Virus record (IMG/VR): IMGVR_UViG_3300045257_000090
Coordinates: 1 to 39,443 of that record
Length of the DNA stretch: 39,443 nucleotides
Origin: a virus
Direction: 5' to 3' (one strand)
The first letter of the stretch is position 1; each line of letters opens with the position of its first letter. The notes beneath the pieces are model-generated. The model searched no databases, was not told the origin of the DNA, and saw only the letters and a program-made list of their open reading frames with translations. The position numbers and the translations under genes are program-made. Positions 1,334-39,443 of the stretch are shown piece after piece.

Positions 1334-2341
1334 TTATCCGTGTCCTAATTTGAGTCTGCTTGGAGCGCCGCTCGCATTGCGCCCGATGAATGAGAGTGAG
1401 CTTGCGCCGCTAACACTAGCGGCTTGTGCATTGGTTGATGCGCCAGTGAATGCGACTGCGCTATTGCCAGCGACAGAAAATGACGGATTAATTCCGGCAT
1501 TAGCCAATCCTGTTGAAGTTAGGCCCCAACCTAGCAGCGTCATTAACTGCCAATCTTTTGCCAATAGCGGAACTGTAGAACTTCTTGAGGGAGCCAAACC
1601 GGGTGTCCCAAATCCGTCGAATGAGCTACCGACTTGGGCTAGATCGCCTGCATCTGCCCCGCTATTAGCATTGTAATCCCAAATATCGGTTGTACCGCCG
1701 TCGCCCGACGCATAGCGCCCTGAAAATCCGCTGAAGCTCCTGGTGCTGGCCGCGCTAAAAGAGAACAGGTCACCCGCGTACAGCGTTGCGTTCTGAGAAA
1801 TATTACAGGCGCGGCCTAAGCCCTCTGTTAGTTCGTGCATCATAACGCCGTAAAGAGAATATGTACCGCCCGCGCAACTATCCCCGTGCTGAGTAAGGTC
1901 AAATGTCGCGCCCGATGAAAACCCTACAAAGAAATCTGGGCTAGAGAGAAAATCGCCAAATATTCCTATCGCCTTTAGCAGCGCATAGGGCATGTAAATT
2001 GATTGGCCGCTAAATGGATTTGAGGCCGGTAATCCAGACGAAGTATTGGCATAGGCGGTACTTTGTATCGAGTTTGGACTAGAGATCGCCTGATATTTAG
2101 TCCTAAAGTTTGCGTAAGTATCCGTAGAAATGAACCATGAACTCGATCCAATTGCCCCCCCCCCTAATGCTTGTCCGTTAACGTCGTTGTAGCCCCAATT
2201 GACGGTTATCCTGGCATCATGCGCTGGCGGGAAAAGATTTGCGACAAGATCGGCACAAACCTGGGTGCGAACTGTATTCCATCCAGCCGGGGCGCTGGAC
2301 CAAGAGGCGGCATCAACATTGATGAACGAGAGCGTCCCCAT
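1334..2341 (-). CDS. Metalloprotease-like virion protein with HExxE motif
   Basis: The protein has 335 aa. At residues 169-177 it carries HELTEGLGR, resembling the HE-[IL]-[ST]-E-x-x-GR motif of NF038122-type predicted metalloproteases, where Glu takes the place of the second His of HExxH (H169, E170, E173). The central part is Gly/Ser/Asn-rich and ends in a hydrophobic GWGL segment. After about residue 285 comes a separate C-terminal module containing SGASSLSFIGRN and ending LKLGHG; nearly the same motif occurs in the protein at 26849..27376. It probably acts outside the cell on host surface protein or matrix. Proteolysis itself is unproven. It is packed in the putative adhesin/enzyme block between portal and scaffold. 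Confidence 0.6.
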   Translation of the reverse strand: MGTLSFINVDAASWSSAPAGWNTVRTQVCADLVANLFPPAHDARITVNWGYNDVNGQALGGGAIGSSSWFISTDTYANFRTKYQAISSPNSIQSTAYANTSSGLPASNPFSGQSIYMPYALLKAIGIFGDFLSSPDFFVGFSSGATFDLTQHGDSCAGGTYSLYGVMMHELTEGLGRACNISQNATLYAGDLFSFSAASTRSFSGFSGRYASGDGGTTDIWDYNANSGADAGDLAQVGSSFDGFGTPGLAPSRSSTVPLLAKDWQLMTLLGWGLTSTGLANAGINPSFSVAGNSAVAFTGASTNAQAASVSGASSLSFIGRNASGAPSRLKLGHG

Positions 2342-2529: not shown

Positions 2530-3177
2530 TTAGCCCCGTATCCGCAATCGCGGAGGTGGAACGCCCATTCCATCAATAATCGGAATAAGAGCGTTAGCGA
2601 CCGTCTGATAACCGAGAGCGTTGCAATGAAATCCTTGATATAAGAACTTTTGCGGGGTCCGGTCCCAAAAGAAATCTACGCTTTCCTCGGGAGAGCCAGG
2701 GTCATACCCATTAACAAGAAGCGCATGGGCATCCATGTAATGCCCCACGCGGAATGTGGCGATAAGCTCCGCGTTTTCCCCCATAAGGGCATTATAGATC
2801 GCGCCGCCGCGATCAGAGGAGCCCGGAGAACCAGTGGTCGTCAGGTTGGCTCCAGTCGAAGTATTGCTGTTAAAAACAATCGTTATGAGAATATAATTTG
2901 GCGTCGTGAGGGCCGCGACCATTTCCTGCCAATCAGGCAAAGGATCGGAACTGTTATTTATCCCGCACCAAATAATCGTGATCCAATTATATTTATCCGT
3001 TGCAGCCAGCATTCTAGTTGCAACCTCGGCCGACGAGTTGCCGCCCTGGCCACCATTAAACACCGTGCGAAATGGATAATGCGCGGCTAGATAACTTGGA
3101 ACGGAATGACCCGTACCGTCCTCATTACCTTCCATGAAACTATCACCCCAACAGGCGATGCGCCAATCAGCGGACAT
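2530..3177 (-). CDS. SGNH/GDSL-family hydrolase (virion esterase or deacetylase)
   Basis: This 215-aa protein has the SGNH blocks in order. Block I is WGDSF with catalytic Ser13, block II is GGQGGNSS, block III is CGINN, and near the C-terminus is FHCNALGYQ with candidate His184. In classical members an Asp stands three residues before this His; here that position is Gln (YQGFH), so the triad may be incomplete or rearranged. No signal peptide is seen, which fits a virion part. In phages such enzymes typically remove acetyl groups from capsule or O-antigen, so it is probably part of the host-surface attack apparatus with its LamG-like and protease-like neighbours. Confidence 0.75.
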   Translation of the reverse strand: MSADWRIACWGDSFMEGNEDGTGHSVPSYLAAHYPFRTVFNGGQGGNSSAEVATRMLAATDKYNWITIIWCGINNSSDPLPDWQEMVAALTTPNYILITIVFNSNTSTGANLTTTGSPGSSDRGGAIYNALMGENAELIATFRVGHYMDAHALLVNGYDPGSPEESVDFFWDRTPQKFLYQGFHCNALGYQTVANALIPIIDGMGVPPPRLRIRG

Positions 3178-3187
3178 TCAGACTGAC

Positions 3188-4018
3188 CTATAGACCGTAT
3201 TTGGTTGCTAGATATGTATGAACATGTCCAATGTCGGTCCCGCTCAACGCGGTGTTGGTGACGATAAATTCGCCTATAAATCCATTCCAATTGGCCGTCC
3301 CCAATACGGGAGCAGCGGTTATGTCTGCACCAATACTAATTCGCTGCGCAGACCCCATTGTTATCGTCTGTGAAACAGGAGAATCCGCCGATACAGAGCC
3401 ATCAAGGTAAAACGAGAAATTGGGATTGGACCGGACAACGCCCATTGTATGACCAACTCCCGTTGTAATTGTACTTGATGCTAAATCTCCCGTGCCTCCC
3501 GCGACTGTAAAGCTCTCAACGGCTGTCGCTGAATTTTTCCTGATAAGAGGAACAAATGTATCCGTATCGCCGTCCCCCCCGCCGCCCGTGCTCCCTAGAT
3601 AGGAAACCAGACGTCCATATGCTGATACGCCAGATGCCGCCATTTGTGCTACGGCAAAAACGGAACACGCCGTCGTAAATACGCTCCCCATATTGCCGGA
3701 CAACATTGCTTGCGATGAGGAGCTATCCAGTTTGACGGCGGGATGACCGTTAATGCCGGAAGAAACCCAACTTGGCTTTGTTAGGCTAGTGCCTATCAAG
3801 TTCGCATTGGAGACGCCGGATGAGCTAACATTGTTCCACTGTGCGACGGTTTGCGTATTTGTCGCCAGCGTTGAACCGGCATCCGTATATACAGAATCAT
3901 TCGTCGTCCCCGTAGTGAAGGAGCGATACCAGAGCTTCAGCGCGCTACCTAGGACCGATGGGTCCCATGCCCCGCCGCCGCCACTGCCGTAATTCGCGCT
4001 AGAGATAATAACTGCCAT
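3188..4018 (-). CDS. LamG/concanavalin-like beta-sandwich virion protein
   Basis: This 276-aa protein has a Gly-rich start (about 10-16) followed by LKLWYRS, VAQWNNVSSSG, HPAVKLDSSSSQAM, FVPLIRKNS, SFYLDGSVSA, ISIGAD and FIGEFIVTNTALS, the strand pattern of LamG/concanavalin-A-like carbohydrate-binding folds. Residues STGGGGDGDTD look like a metal-binding or flexible loop. It is likely a glycan-binding part of the virion, next to the SGNH hydrolase, so the pair could bind and modify surface polysaccharide. ATG 4018 follows the upstream gene by 4 bp. The fold call comes from sequence pattern only. Confidence 0.6.
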   Translation of the reverse strand: MAVIISSANYGSGGGGAWDPSVLGSALKLWYRSFTTGTTNDSVYTDAGSTLATNTQTVAQWNNVSSSGVSNANLIGTSLTKPSWVSSGINGHPAVKLDSSSSQAMLSGNMGSVFTTACSVFAVAQMAASGVSAYGRLVSYLGSTGGGGDGDTDTFVPLIRKNSATAVESFTVAGGTGDLASSTITTGVGHTMGVVRSNPNFSFYLDGSVSADSPVSQTITMGSAQRISIGADITAAPVLGTANWNGFIGEFIVTNTALSGTDIGHVHTYLATKYGL

Positions 4019-4022
4019 GCGC

Positions 4023-4535
4023 CTAACTCCGCTGAACTTTGAGAGACGCCGTGACGCGGGTGATCGTTGCCGGTGAACCTGTGATCGTAAATGCGAGAAT
4101 ATCGCCGGCCGTGAGCGTCGTTGTCCATCCTGTCAATGTCGAGTCTTGTGACTTGAACGCGCTTGAAATCGTCGGAGGAGCCGACGCTGTAATTTTGTCG
4201 CCGGACACCGGGTGCGTACCAGGAGCAAAGTTTGCATAGGTACACTTGTAAATATCGACAACGACGGACCCAGAAGCATCGCCTAGAAGCGTTGCCGTCT
4301 TGATCGTGCAAGAATATGGGACTTCGATATAGCCGTAGTTCTTTGCCGTGAGCGCCGATCCGCCGCCATCGCAAACAAACTCAAGATTATCTGTGAACTG
4401 CGTCTTGAGCCAATCGCGCACCTGAGCAGTTGTCATCTTTAGATCGGAAGCGCCGTCGTCGGTATAGAGGAGTTCCGTTCCGGCAATATTTCCGGTAACG
4501 ATCGCGCTAAGTGCAGCAAGTGTTGAGTCAGCCAT
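4023..4535 (-). CDS. Virion structural protein, beta-rich
   Basis: This 170-aa protein has a helical N-terminus containing LKMTTAQVRDWLKTQF, followed by beta-rich sequence with NYGYIEVPYSCTIKTATLLGD, VVDIYKCTYANF, LTAGDILAFTITGSPATITRVTASLKV. The second half resembles small phage fibre or receptor-binding beta-sandwich domains. Two Cys may pair. It starts at ATG 4535 after the 39-aa ORF and is followed closely by the LamG-like gene. A decoration or adhesin role is inferred from position. Confidence 0.5.
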   Translation of the reverse strand: MADSTLAALSAIVTGNIAGTELLYTDDGASDLKMTTAQVRDWLKTQFTDNLEFVCDGGGSALTAKNYGYIEVPYSCTIKTATLLGDASGSVVVDIYKCTYANFAPGTHPVSGDKITASAPPTISSAFKSQDSTLTGWTTTLTAGDILAFTITGSPATITRVTASLKVQRS

Positions 4536-4547
4536 TGAAGTGAGTCC

Positions 4548-4667
4548 TTAGTTGTGTGCGCATAGCAGGAAGCCGCCCGAGCGAAGCAGGAGAAGGCGAC
4601 CACGAAGAACGATTTTGAAGTTTGTGCGAAGCAGAATGTTCGTTGCGCGACGGAGAAGCGTCGTCAT
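4548..4667 (-). CDS. 39-aa Leu/Arg-rich repeat ORF
   Basis: ATG 4667 follows the stop of the adhesin gene with no gap (TAAATG); the stop is at 4548-4550. The product is a run of short units: LLRRATN, ILLRTNFK, IVLRGR, LLLLRSGG, FLLCAHN. The same kind of unit ends the upstream 458-aa adhesin (ending LLLAHS), so this could be a detached extra C-terminal module or a separately made peptide. The rest of the 132-bp gap 4536-4667 contains nothing else I recognise. Confidence 0.45.
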   Translation of the reverse strand: MTTLLRRATNILLRTNFKIVLRGRLLLLRSGGFLLCAHN

Positions 4668-6044
4668 TTAGCTGTGCGCCAATAACAAGTGATCTACTCC
4701 GTCGTGCAGAAGCAGCACGAACACGCCGACGCGAAGTGTGATCCCGTCAACGCCGTTACGCTCAAGGAAATAGCTCGTACCGTCTCGCAACTTAAGATTT
4801 GGCGGCGTATGTCCGATGCTTGGCGCGGATACCGTGATCGTGAATGGAGAACTGTCGTCGGTTACGCCATTGGCGTCCCTCGATCGCAGAACAATTCCCG
4901 AGTATGCGAACGCTGTCGTCGGGGTTCCCGTGATCCCGCCAGTGCTAGGCGTGAGCGACAATCCATCAGGCAACGAACCGCCCGTGATCGAATACGTGTA
5001 GGACGACGTTCCGCCTGAGCTAGACGGGGTTGCGCCCGTATAAGGAGAACCGCGCGTTGCAGTTGTATTTGGCGAGTAACTTAGCGTCGTCTTGGTAACG
5101 GTCGCGGTAGTATTTGAATCCTGCGTAACCGTGCTTGTCGAGTTAGTAGCCGACTCCGTAACCTTGATCGTGCTGCCAACGTCGGCGTGACGAACGACGT
5201 AAGTTAGCCCAACTTCGCCGGTTACGGCCGAGCCACCTGATTTCCACTGATCGGAAATCGTAGGCGTTGGATTTCCCGTCCACGTACCGCGCGTTAGAAC
5301 GAGCGTGACGCCTTCGACCGCTGCCCCCGCAATGGCCGGCGCAACAGTGTTTGCCGGAGCCTTAGTTACCGTGATCGCTTGAACGAGATTGGGGAACGAT
5401 GGTGTCGTGCCCGTTACGGAAATCGTAACCGTAATGGTCGGATGCGTTGCCGCCACAAGATCGGTATTGTCGAGAACTTGAACAACGCCGGTCGATGAAT
5501 TGATTTTGAATGTCGAATCTGCGTCAGCGATCGCCCAAACCGCCGTACCCGTAAACGCACTGACGATCGAGGCCGTGCCAACCGTTGTATTGTTAGCCGA
5601 TCCATCGGGAACGGTTGTTGCGGACAGAACAATCCCGCCGAGCGCAAATTCTGTCCCCGTTTCATCAACGGGGCAGAAACTCGCAAGCGCCATCGCAGTA
5701 AGTTGCGCAAGCGTCTTGGTGCCGTTCTGTGCAACGCCGGACGTATCGAGTGCAACTAGCGGCAGGATACCGCGTGCCTGTATGACCGCCGCCGTGTCGC
5801 CGCTAACGGTATCAACGCCTGTTTCGTCAACCTGACAGAACGACTTTATCCCTCGGCTCTTGAGCGCCGTCGCCGTAATGCTATTGGTCGTCTCCGTTCC
5901 AACCGAGTTCACTTGGCATATTGGCGCCATACCCTTCGCGAGTATTTGCGCGAGCGTGGCCGTGCCATTAAACGCGATGCCGTTGGCGTCAACAACGCAA
6001 TAGGTTTTGATCCCCTGTCGGCGCAGGGTGTCCAAGTCTGACAT
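4668..6044 (-). CDS. Large modular adhesin: 27-residue repeats, cadherin/Ig-like domains, C-terminal LLLR module
   Basis: This 458-aa protein shows four visible parts. Residues 11-133 are four and a half tandem 27-residue repeats. Residues about 135-215 look cadherin-like (FKINSSTGVVQVLDNTDL). Residues about 220-400 hold Ig-like folds, including a putative-Ig segment with LPDGLSLTPSTGGITGTP. Residues about 410-458 are a short-period tail with LERNGVDGITLR and HDGVDHLLLAHS. Such architecture is usual in extracellular or virion adhesins. It lies 6 bp after the portal stop, an odd place for a receptor-binding protein in P22-like phages. The function is inferred as host attachment or capsid decoration. 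Confidence 0.65.
   Translation of the reverse strand: MSDLDTLRRQGIKTYCVVDANGIAFNGTATLAQILAKGMAPICQVNSVGTETTNSITATALKSRGIKSFCQVDETGVDTVSGDTAAVIQARGILPLVALDTSGVAQNGTKTLAQLTAMALASFCPVDETGTEFALGGIVLSATTVPDGSANNTTVGTASIVSAFTGTAVWAIADADSTFKINSSTGVVQVLDNTDLVAATHPTITVTISVTGTTPSFPNLVQAITVTKAPANTVAPAIAGAAVEGVTLVLTRGTWTGNPTPTISDQWKSGGSAVTGEVGLTYVVRHADVGSTIKVTESATNSTSTVTQDSNTTATVTKTTLSYSPNTTATRGSPYTGATPSSSGGTSSYTYSITGGSLPDGLSLTPSTGGITGTPTTAFAYSGIVLRSRDANGVTDDSSPFTITVSAPSIGHTPPNLKLRDGTSYFLERNGVDGITLRVGVFVLLLHDGVDHLLLAHS
5646..6014 (-). repeat. Tandem 27-codon repeat region inside the adhesin gene
   Basis: Translated units begin at residues 11, 38, 65, 92 and 119 (the last partial). Each has the pattern G-I-x-x-[YFIL]-C-x-V-D-x-x-G near its start and a helix-like second half (TLAQILAK, TALKSR, AAVIQAR, TLAQLTAM). 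Cys is kept in four of five units. The period is exactly 27 residues. The units have diverged, so they are old and probably folded together as a solenoid or bundle. Confidence 0.8.
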
Positions 6045-18913: not shown

Positions 18914-19198
18914 ATGACCAAACCGCACGGCGTGGCATACGATTGGGAGCAAGACCCGACCGCAATTCGGGACGGTCTATTTGTTACCGATGCCGAGATA
19001 ATTCATCGTCTTGGCGTCCCCGTTAAACACGCCACGGATGCCCTGCGAGTCCTTGACCATGAATGCAAGCGCAACCGCTTCCCCCAGAAGCAGAAACTAT
19101 GGGGGGATAGGCGGTACTGGCCGGCGGTAAAACAGTGGTTAGACGCCAATAATGGGCTTAGAATCCCTTCAAACAGGAGGGAAGAAGATGCCGCCTAG
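18914..19198 (+). CDS. Excisionase-like / MerR-type HTH small protein
   Basis: This 94-aa protein contains FVTDAEIIHRLGVPVKHATD, then ALRVLDHECKRNRFPQKQKL and RRYWPAVKQWLDANNGLR, the layout of a small winged-HTH (helix, short wing, then a helix). It overlaps the start of the integrase gene by 11 bp and so probably controls direction of recombination. No direct match can be claimed. Confidence 0.55.
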   Translation: MTKPHGVAYDWEQDPTAIRDGLFVTDAEIIHRLGVPVKHATDALRVLDHECKRNRFPQKQKLWGDRRYWPAVKQWLDANNGLRIPSNRREEDAA

Positions 19199-20399
19199 AA
19201 TTGAGAATGCGCCAGGACTTGCATGGAAGCCGCGTAAAGCCGGATGGGAAGCCCGCTGGCAAGCACGTACCGATCTAGTCGAGCGCGGCTATAGGCCCAA
19301 GAGCTACAGGATTTGGCAAGGACAAGATCATCCCGATGAAATCGAAACGGCATACATCCAAAACCAATGCTCGTCCCTCCAATCAGAAATGCTGGTATGG
19401 GGACGAGGTGGCATTGCTATCGTGGATAGCTTCGATGGCACAGTTTCAGGACTTATTCGATGCTACCAGCACGACGAAGATACACCTTACCGAAAGCTCC
19501 GCTACCGCACTCGCAAATACTATCAATCGCTATGTAAGCGACTGGAAGATGACTTCGGCGAAAGGCAAATCGCGGAAATCAAAGCGCGCGGCTTAATCCA
19601 CTGGCATGAAAAGGTTGTTGAGAGTGGTCACATCGCAATGGCACACAGCGTCATGGGGATGCTGCGTATCCTGACGGGATTTGGTGCGACGATATTGGAG
19701 GATGCGGAATGCAACCGGTTGAGCCAGGTGTTGAGCAAGATGCGCTTCACGATGTCGAAGCCCCGCACTTCTGTCCTTACTGCGGAGCAGGCTGTAGCTA
19801 TTCGTGGTTCAGCTCACGCACTTGGGCGGCCGAGTGTTGCCTTGGCTCAAGCATTCCAATTCGATTGTATGTTCAGACAGAAAGACGTGATTGGGGAATG
19901 GGTACCGGTGTCAGAGCCGGGGTTATCAGACATTCTCGACGGAAATAACAAGTGGCTGCGCGGAATACGTTGGGAGGAAATAAATGGAGATTGGATTCTC
20001 ACCCACATCACTAGCAAGCGGCAGAAAGAGATTACGGTTGATCTCAAGCTCGCGCCTATGGTCATGGAGGAATTGGCGCATCGCCCGCGCAATTCTTATC
20101 CGGCGCGAGGTCCGGTTATTATATCCGATGTTGCCCTTCGACCTTGGTATGCTGTTGAGTTCCGCAAAACCTGGCGACGAGCAGCGGATAATGGCGGGAT
20201 ACCTAGGTGGGTTAGGAACATGGACAGCCGTGCCGGGGCTATTACTGAGGCCACCGAGTCTGGGGCCGAACTAGAGCATATCAAGCACGCAGCCACCCAC
20301 TCGGACATCGGAATGACGCAACGCTATGCGCGTGGCGCGACCGACAAAATCGAGGGTGTCATGCGCCAACGAGCGGAATACCGGAAGAACAAAGAGTGA
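19188..20399 (+). CDS. int: Tyrosine integrase
   Basis: From ATG 19188 (AGGAGGG 5-10 bp upstream) the product is 403 aa. The catalytic domain shows Arg230 (CMFRQKDVIG), a Lys-bearing ITSKRQKEI, Arg348 (MDSRAGAIT), His371 (ATHSDIG) and Tyr380 (QRYAR). The first residue of the usual HxxR box is Met345 instead of His. The N-terminus and core-binding domain occupy about residues 1-190. It integrates phage DNA at a host attachment site; the site could not be located from sequence. Confidence 0.9.
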   Translation: MPPRIENAPGLAWKPRKAGWEARWQARTDLVERGYRPKSYRIWQGQDHPDEIETAYIQNQCSSLQSEMLVWGRGGIAIVDSFDGTVSGLIRCYQHDEDTPYRKLRYRTRKYYQSLCKRLEDDFGERQIAEIKARGLIHWHEKVVESGHIAMAHSVMGMLRILTGFGATILEDAECNRLSQVLSKMRFTMSKPRTSVLTAEQAVAIRGSAHALGRPSVALAQAFQFDCMFRQKDVIGEWVPVSEPGLSDILDGNNKWLRGIRWEEINGDWILTHITSKRQKEITVDLKLAPMVMEELAHRPRNSYPARGPVIISDVALRPWYAVEFRKTWRRAADNGGIPRWVRNMDSRAGAITEATESGAELEHIKHAATHSDIGMTQRYARGATDKIEGVMRQRAEYRKNKE

Positions 20400-26052: not shown

Positions 26053-26468
26053 GTTTTGCGATTGATCTTAATGAATGCGAAAAATCCGTTGTATTGCCAG
26101 CCGAATTGGAAAACCCATTTCGTGCCGCTGTAGCTCGCAAACGGCAACGGAATGAGCGTCCGAATAACGCACCATTGCCAGCCCGTCTCGGGAGGTTGCA
26201 TGTCGTCGCGTTGGATTGTCGTTACGGGTGATTTTCCGGTTACGGTATAATTTCGGTCCTGTGCGCCGACGACATAGGCACGGAAATTTTGCAGCGGATT
26301 ACGGAACGTATTCCAGATAAAATTACGCCGCCATTCCGGCCATTCTGGATGATACCAGGGCGCCTGATCCGCGGTCTGCTCGTCGTCATTCTGAAACCAC
26401 CAGATCGGGTTGATTTTCTTTATGAACGGCTTTCGTGTCCTGTCCGTAAACGTAAAGCTTTCGGTCAT
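26049..26468 (-). CDS. Uncharacterised Trp-rich phage protein before the endolysin
   Basis: From ATG 26468 (ATGA overlap) the product is 139 aa and rich in Trp, Phe and Asn: INPIWWFQNDDEQTADQAPW, NPLQNFRAYVVGAQDRNYTV, then TGKSPVTTIQRDDMQPPETG and a C-terminal YNGFFAFIKINRK. I recall similar small proteins (DUF7338-like) in phage structural/lysis regions but cannot assign a function. A part of the virion or lysis machinery is possible. Confidence 0.5.
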   Translation of the reverse strand: MTESFTFTDRTRKPFIKKINPIWWFQNDDEQTADQAPWYHPEWPEWRRNFIWNTFRNPLQNFRAYVVGAQDRNYTVTGKSPVTTIQRDDMQPPETGWQWCVIRTLIPLPFASYSGTKWVFQFGWQYNGFFAFIKINRKT

Positions 26469-26848
26469 GGGCAATAGCCGTTGCCTTCATCATCGCCCGC
26501 TAGATCGCGATTTGCTTTGCTGGCCGTCAGCCGAAAATTGAAATCAATCGCGTAAGTATTCCCGTCGCTTACGACATGACCAAAGACGGCACCGCGCTCT
26601 GAGCCGCTACTGTCCCATGTGTATGACCATACATCGTCAACCTGCGTAAGGTCATACTGCGTGTGTACGGCGCAATCGCCATTAAGCGGCGCATATGAAA
26701 GCGTCAGGTTTGCGCTGGCCGGATTATCAACATTTCCGCTTGTGTCGTAGAACGTGACCGCAAACGCGATCGCCTGATCGCGCGTAAATTGCTGATTCCC
26801 GTCTGTCGGGCGCCCGTTAATTGTAACAATGGGTGCGTCGAAACTCAT
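26465..26848 (-). CDS. Beta-sandwich virion protein, tandem paralogue 2
   Basis: This 127-aa protein shares an extended region with the gene directly upstream (26849..27376): PIVTxxGR, TGNQxF, RDQAIA, TFxDTSGNV, YDLTxVDDVWSYTWDSS and DFNFRLT. It is a beta-sandwich-like repeat of a fibre or decoration domain. It lacks the C-terminal module of its paralogue. ATG 26848 follows the previous stop directly (TAAATG). Confidence 0.7.
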   Translation of the reverse strand: MSFDAPIVTINGRPTDGNQQFTRDQAIAFAVTFYDTSGNVDNPASANLTLSYAPLNGDCAVHTQYDLTQVDDVWSYTWDSSGSERGAVFGHVVSDGNTYAIDFNFRLTASKANRDLAGDDEGNGYCP

Positions 26849-27376
26849 TTAGTGCCCTCGTAGTAAGCGATCGCCGCCGCCGCGCCTAAGTAGAATATGG
26901 TCAACATTGTTGTGCTTAAGAATGAAAAACGCGGTTGAATTTCTGCCAACAAAAGAGAGAGAGCTGGCGCCACTGATGGAAAAACTTGCCGCAACGATTA
27001 CTGATGCCGGAGTCGGCTGTTGTGCTATGTTCGCCGGATTTTTTGTTAGACGAAAATTGAAATCAACGGCGTATGCCCTATCCGAACTTGCGATATGTCC
27101 CGACACGGCATCTGCGTGAGCTATACTGCTATCCCAAGTGTAGGACCAAACATCGTCAACGCCTGTTAGGTCGTAACTCGTATGCGTCCGCCGTCCGCTA
27201 TCAATCGACCAATATGCAAGCGTTAGCGTTGCCGCTGGTACGGTTGCGACATTGCCGGACGTGTCGAAAAACGTCGCGCTTACCGCAATCGCCTGATCTC
27301 TGGGAAACTTTTGATTGCCCGTCGCGACGCGCCCTTGCAGCGTTACGATCGGCCGCCGAAAGGGAGTTACGGTCAC
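26849..27376 (-). CDS. Beta-sandwich virion protein, tandem paralogue 1
   Basis: This 175-aa protein starts at GTG 27376 (overlap GTGA). Its N-terminal ~110 residues are paralogous to the next gene. The extension contains SISGASSLSFVGRN, almost as in the metalloprotease-like protein (1334..2341), and a tail with KHNNVDHILLRR then RLLRGH, like the C-terminus of the 458-aa adhesin. Probably a fibre or decoration subunit with an interchangeable C-terminal module. Confidence 0.7.
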   Translation of the reverse strand: MTVTPFRRPIVTLQGRVATGNQKFPRDQAIAVSATFFDTSGNVATVPAATLTLAYWSIDSGRRTHTSYDLTGVDDVWSYTWDSSIAHADAVSGHIASSDRAYAVDFNFRLTKNPANIAQQPTPASVIVAASFSISGASSLSFVGRNSTAFFILKHNNVDHILLRRGGGDRLLRGH

Positions 27377-39217: not shown

Positions 39218-39443
39218 TTATCTCATTGCGTATTCAAACACCGAGCTATCGCTATTGTCGGAATCGTCAGGATCAACGTTCTTTGTTGAGCCTGTCGCCC
39301 GAGATAGTGACGGCGGGAGTTTGACGGTGGAGTTTTGCTGTTGACCGCCAGCGGACGTTCGAGCCGCCTCTAAAGCTTTTGCGAGAAATTCCGGGTCTTT
39401 CAATGCGTCCTCGCGAACTTTCGTCTTGTAGGACGCAGGATCG
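39218..39443 (-). CDS. Scaffolding protein (C-terminal part; continues at position 780 side)
   Basis: This frame enters from the right edge with no start and ends at the stop at 39218. Positions 39317-39443 duplicate 1-127, so the unique part is 39218-39316, coding the last 32 residues, an acidic tail (TKNVDPDDSDNSDSSVFEYA). Joined at the repeat, it completes the 292-aa scaffold. Confidence 0.75.
   Translation of the reverse strand, partial: DPASYKTKVREDALKDPEFLAKALEAARTSAGGQQQNSTVKLPPSLSRATGSTKNVDPDDSDNSDSSVFEYAMR
39317..39443. repeat. Terminal direct repeat, right copy
   Basis: Identical to 1-127; see the left copy. It marks the contig as circular, with one unit of 39,316 bp. Confidence 0.95.

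Follow-up and report, generated by a model that had tools for sequence, protein, structure and literature searches.

T4 Hoc binds the capsid through a C-terminal domain that follows variable Ig domains; phage PG7 has this domain at the opposite end, the N-terminus, of a protein with a GDSL lipase (PMC10385173). Structural proteins of phages can bear promiscuous Ig-like domains (Fraser et al. 2006, as cited in PMC5009743), and lactococcal 936 phages possess folded carbohydrate-binding modules, for two of which host binding was demonstrated (PMC6669499). Here we describe a viral genome of 39,443 bases (IMGVR_UViG_3300045257_000090, referred to in its entirety as the window) in which the sequences support a C-terminal module, termed the tail, common to an adhesin-like protein, an accessory protein and, via the motif SGASSLSF[IV]GRN, a metalloprotease, the bodies of which are otherwise unrelated (Table 1).

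The tails resemble each of these systems in part. Like the tails of these putative virion proteins, the Hoc docking domain is terminal on accessory virion proteins, at either end and on different bodies, but it has about 96 residues and an alpha/beta fold, whereas the tails consist of short repeats over 25-50 residues; scanned with family models, they had no Pfam or PHROG match. As reported for the Ig-like domains in the citing article, one C-terminal module occurs on unrelated (here putative) virion proteins with independent gain and loss. However, the tails match no Ig family, the Ig domain of the adhesin is upstream of its tail (the He_PIG match stops at residue 406, the tail begins at about 416), and no frameshift is needed. 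Reuse of a binding module on several virion proteins (putative here) is shared with the 936 phages, but the tails match no carbohydrate-binding module family. The nine-residue period is that of RTX nonapeptide repeats, and the consensus of the tail units gave weak matches to RTX-like proteins, but the GG of GGxGxDxUx is missing, its first two glycines being L/H or L/R in the tails, which contain no tandem GGxGxDxUx and had no Pfam match in a scan at E 1.

Genome and gene setting

A direct terminal repeat of 127 bases (1-127 and 39317-39443) is present at both ends of the window, so that the genome is most likely complete and circularly closing on itself; the scaffold gene spans the genome ends. 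The virus, from a metagenome, is a P22-like temperate phage. As far as can be seen from the genes, it has the P22-like podovirus module, with a homologous portal (33% identity to that of Pseudanabaena phage Pan3) and the order portal-accessory-scaffold-capsid, and we read the 415-aa protein at 19152..20399 as integrase-like. The TerL is 82% identical to that of contig IMGVR 3300037076_000005 (L002), in which the gene order is alike and which is the one relative available for comparison. On the minus strand of the window, the genes run in the sequence TerL, portal, adhesin, 39-aa ORF, 4023..4535, 3188..4018, GDSL lipase, 61-aa ORF, metalloprotease, gp80-like fibre protein, scaffold and capsid. 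The adhesin and metalloprotease genes are located between the portal and the scaffold/capsid genes, and their neighbours match virion-protein PHROGs. The product of 893-1333 matches (E 2.8e-18) the Pfam family for gp80, the fibre I protein of podophage GP4. The GDSL lipase (2530-3177), within the accessory cluster, ends in PPPRLRIRG, which weakly resembles TPPNLKLRDG, with which the adhesin tail begins; as a candidate tail it was dropped as too weak (97/5000 shuffles against the adhesin).

Table 1. Tailed proteins, their tails and related ORFs in the window.
Feature	Coordinates	Strand	Description
Metalloprotease, NF038122 family, with extension	1334..2341	-	80.2 bits (NCBIfam cut-off 80)
Metalloprotease C-terminal extension	1334..1489	-	SFSVAGNSAVAFTGAS..SVSGASSLSFIGRN..RLKLGHG
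39-aa ORF	4548..4667	-	L/R-rich, ends LLCAHN; uncertain member
Adhesin-like protein	4668..6044	-	N-domain 1-137, He_PIG Ig domain 319-406, C-terminal tail
Adhesin C-terminal tail	4671..4800	-	Some 4.5 nine-residue strand-turn units, covering residues about 416-458
Tandem paralogue	26465..26848	-	No tail at all; compared with 26849..27376
Accessory protein with tail	26849..27376	-	Adjoins tail-fibre gene
Tail of the accessory protein	26849..26995	-	Residues 128-175: AASFSISGASSLSFVGRN then FFILKHNNVDH/ILLRRGGGDR/LLRGH

The tailed proteins

The N-domain of the adhesin consists of five repeats of about 28 residues of the FCPVDETG type; it matched no family and was otherwise found only in L002, with 54% identity. 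Its Ig domain was recognized as He_PIG (Pfam E 4.9e-10). A preliminary description of this DNA had noted that the adhesin ends in units of about nine residues, and these are present at the positions given there: LKLRDGTSY/FLERNGVDG/ITLRVGVFV/LLLHDGVDH/LLLAHS, with a hydrophobic period of 9 residues (z 2.0; the tail of the relative in L002 reaches z 2.2). The synonymous codon usage of the adhesin tail (4671-4800) is atypical, among the lowest 1.3% of gene windows. The same description was correct in letter and position for the LLLR-type end (RLLRGH) of the accessory protein, the C-terminus of which reads AASFSISGASSLSFVGRNSTAFFILKHNNVDHILLRRGGGDRLLRGH and has a hydrophobic period of 10 (z 3.9). 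Encoded away from the adhesin/metalloprotease cluster, the accessory protein carries both SGASSLSF[IV]GRN and LLLR stretches, and may therefore be considered the bridge between the two kinds of tail. The metalloprotease extension is Ser/Ala-rich and contains SGASSLSFIGRN as well as its terminal motif.

Two AlphaFold models, with very low confidence (mean pLDDT 37.5 and 33.2), place tail strands about every 9-10 residues, with turns at G/N/D positions, in keeping with the sequence; in that of the accessory protein, the tail forms five strands separated by turns at intervals of about 10 residues. A fold search with a low-confidence model returned nothing at E <= 0.001 and was given no weight. 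The tails matched no known family in Pfam or PHROGs, including lectin and binding families; a Pfam scan at E 1 recognized only He_PIG in the adhesin and nothing in the accessory protein.

Relatedness of the tails

For 49 genes of the window, the C-terminal 50 residues of the products were aligned all against all. Among the 1,176 pairs, metalloprotease and accessory protein ranked 1st (score 67, z 9.1, 0/5000 shuffles) and adhesin and accessory protein 2nd (score 49, z 6.7, 1/5000 shuffles). Because the N-terminal control of this comparison contained one presumably chance pair with z 6.8 and score 45, the second pair alone is not decisive. Judged from sequence, the kinship between metalloprotease and accessory protein is clear, in agreement with the earlier observation that both contain SGASSLSF[IV]GRN. 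Most codons of this motif differ at third positions between its two carriers, whereas only one residue differs, which points to conservation at the protein level rather than a fresh DNA copy. The adhesin and metalloprotease tails had no direct match (861/5000 shuffles).

The pair of adhesin and accessory protein is backed by profiles, as proposed in the preliminary description. Leave-one-out profiles of the tails were scored against 6,455 ORFs: that built from the adhesin tail only ranked the L002 tail first (E 1.1e-4) and the accessory protein tail second (E 0.023), the next ORF having E 1.9, and 0/1000 shuffles reached the observed score. An [AG]H that is terminal or one residue before the end is found in 4/74 ORFs of the window, namely those of the adhesin, the 39-aa protein, the accessory protein and the metalloprotease, and in 3/850 ORFs of related loci, the pattern having been picked after it was noticed. 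The three tails are unlike in length and composition, and their resemblance, although short, is probably real.

The proposal of similar tails on unrelated proteins is supported for the adhesin, the accessory protein and, via SGASSLSF, the metalloprotease, whereas all tests gave only borderline results for the 39-aa ORF. That ORF does have the LLCAHN end ascribed to it, but its similarity to the tails is weak (alignment 178/5000 shuffles, profile 12/1000, L002 profile 166/1000), it has a hydrophobic period of 8 instead of 9 (z 3.5), and L002 contains no counterpart. Its codon usage is typical, unlike that of the adhesin tail directly before it. It is in frame with the adhesin, immediately behind the stop codon of the latter; a readthrough fusion of the two was considered, but it found no support, the adhesin gene ending in TAA.

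Apart from L002 and chance RTX matches, nothing was retrieved when the tail was sought among isolated phages, plasmids, alphaproteobacterial genomes and, by DNA pattern, in IMG/VR; the accessory protein domain and the adhesin N-domain as queries found no additional relatives, and such tails were absent from the other 21 TerL relatives, of which many are fragments. Since these searches used exact-pattern scans and low-complexity filters, with which such repeats are easily missed, the empty results do not establish rarity.

Gain and loss of tails

According to the preliminary description, absence of the tails from close homologues would speak against the module, and here the outcome is divided. 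The paralogue of the accessory protein, 58% identical over the N-terminal 111 residues, is tail-less, as is the L002 metalloprotease homologue (88.7 bits for NF038122), which ends before the extension and is the sole relative of this protein. The adhesin homologue in L002 (6001-6543), in contrast, is devoid of the Ig part but keeps N-domain and tail. With two tail-less homologues and a third still tailed, the module is optional rather than essential, and the tails are gained, lost and resized independently of the bodies. The L002 tail has about 2.5 units versus 4.5 in the window, and two of its units are identical in 24/27 bases, which suggests a recent 27-base duplication. The best-matching units of the two adhesins share 7/9 residues but only 18/27 bases, with mainly synonymous differences, so that the tail units are conserved at the protein level.

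L002 carries another common tag, MT(T)AGLLSFGR[TS]V.AS, at the N-termini of an 887-aa protein and the unrelated NF038122 metalloprotease (L002:8693-8740 and L002:11353-11400). This pair scores highest among 210 N-terminal pairs (z 9.1), and the tag is conserved as protein but not as DNA. Terminal tags thus seem to recur on accessory proteins in this phage group, although at opposite protein ends in the two phages. The LLSFGR of this tag suggests SGASSLSF[IV]GRN by eye, but the similarity is not above chance.

Possible functions

The tails share sequence, lie at the extreme C-terminus and come and go independently of the bodies. Our main reading, with a probability of about 40%, is that they are terminal docking or anchoring tags for accessory, putative virion proteins. 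Such a tag would be a C-terminal add-on of short beta-strand-plus-turn units of 8 to 10 residues, with turns at NG, DG, GG or GN and an [AG]H end; its edge strands may pair with the beta surface of a common structural partner, or with each other, and the adhesin, the Ig-like protein and the protease, with their unrelated bodies, would all be mounted on the particle in this way. We infer the beta structure, the virion presence and the binding to a common partner. Docking is plausible because gain and loss are independent of the body and L002 bears another common terminal tag, and it is preferred because of the terminal tags in both phages and the Hoc precedent. The C-terminal ranking, the leave-one-out profiles, the common ends, the protein-level conservation and the gene position among virion genes also argue for it. 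On the other side, the tail-less homologues imply that the bodies in general manage without a tail, the tails differ among themselves, two of them are unmatched directly, the structure models are of very low confidence and the comparison includes one relative. Tentatively, the tails may represent an unnamed class of very short, repeat-built docking tags that mount unrelated enzymes and adhesins, are exchangeable, and are replaced by an N-terminal tag in the relative.

The variable unit number and the recent duplication in L002 fit an exposed adhesive repeat at least equally well. According to this possible but less probable explanation, the tails bind a host surface glycan or LPS, the module having been recruited to several fibre-like proteins; the position at the end of an adhesin-like protein, the conserved N-domain of which would be the anchored end, and the precedent of the 936 phages are consistent with it, but units such as LLLH and ILLR are very hydrophobic for an exposed binding face, and no lectin or binding family in Pfam or PHROGs was matched. 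The strand-turn periodicity of the tails would also suit C-terminal oligomerisation or folding elements, in which strands of several chains interleave and trimerise each protein separately. Homotrimers in which beta elements at the C-terminus provide the closure are common among phage fibre proteins. However, the metalloprotease is not an obvious trimer and the paralogue manages without a tail, which makes this explanation unlikely. Slightly less likely still is that only the 12 residues of SGASSLSF[IV]GRN are homologous and that LLLR reflects convergent leucine-rich ends with no selected function: the chance pair in the N-terminal control, the atypical codon usage of the adhesin tail and the lack of further relatives in the searches favour coincidence, whereas the profile ranking and shuffles, the retention of the tail in the adhesin of L002, where the best unit differs mainly by synonymous changes, and the common [AG]H ends speak against it.

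If the tails are adhesive repeats, they would constitute a new small binding module. If they are docking tags, this podovirus would assemble changeable surface enzymes and adhesins through a minimal common connector, which may be of laboratory use for the display of cargo on phage particles.
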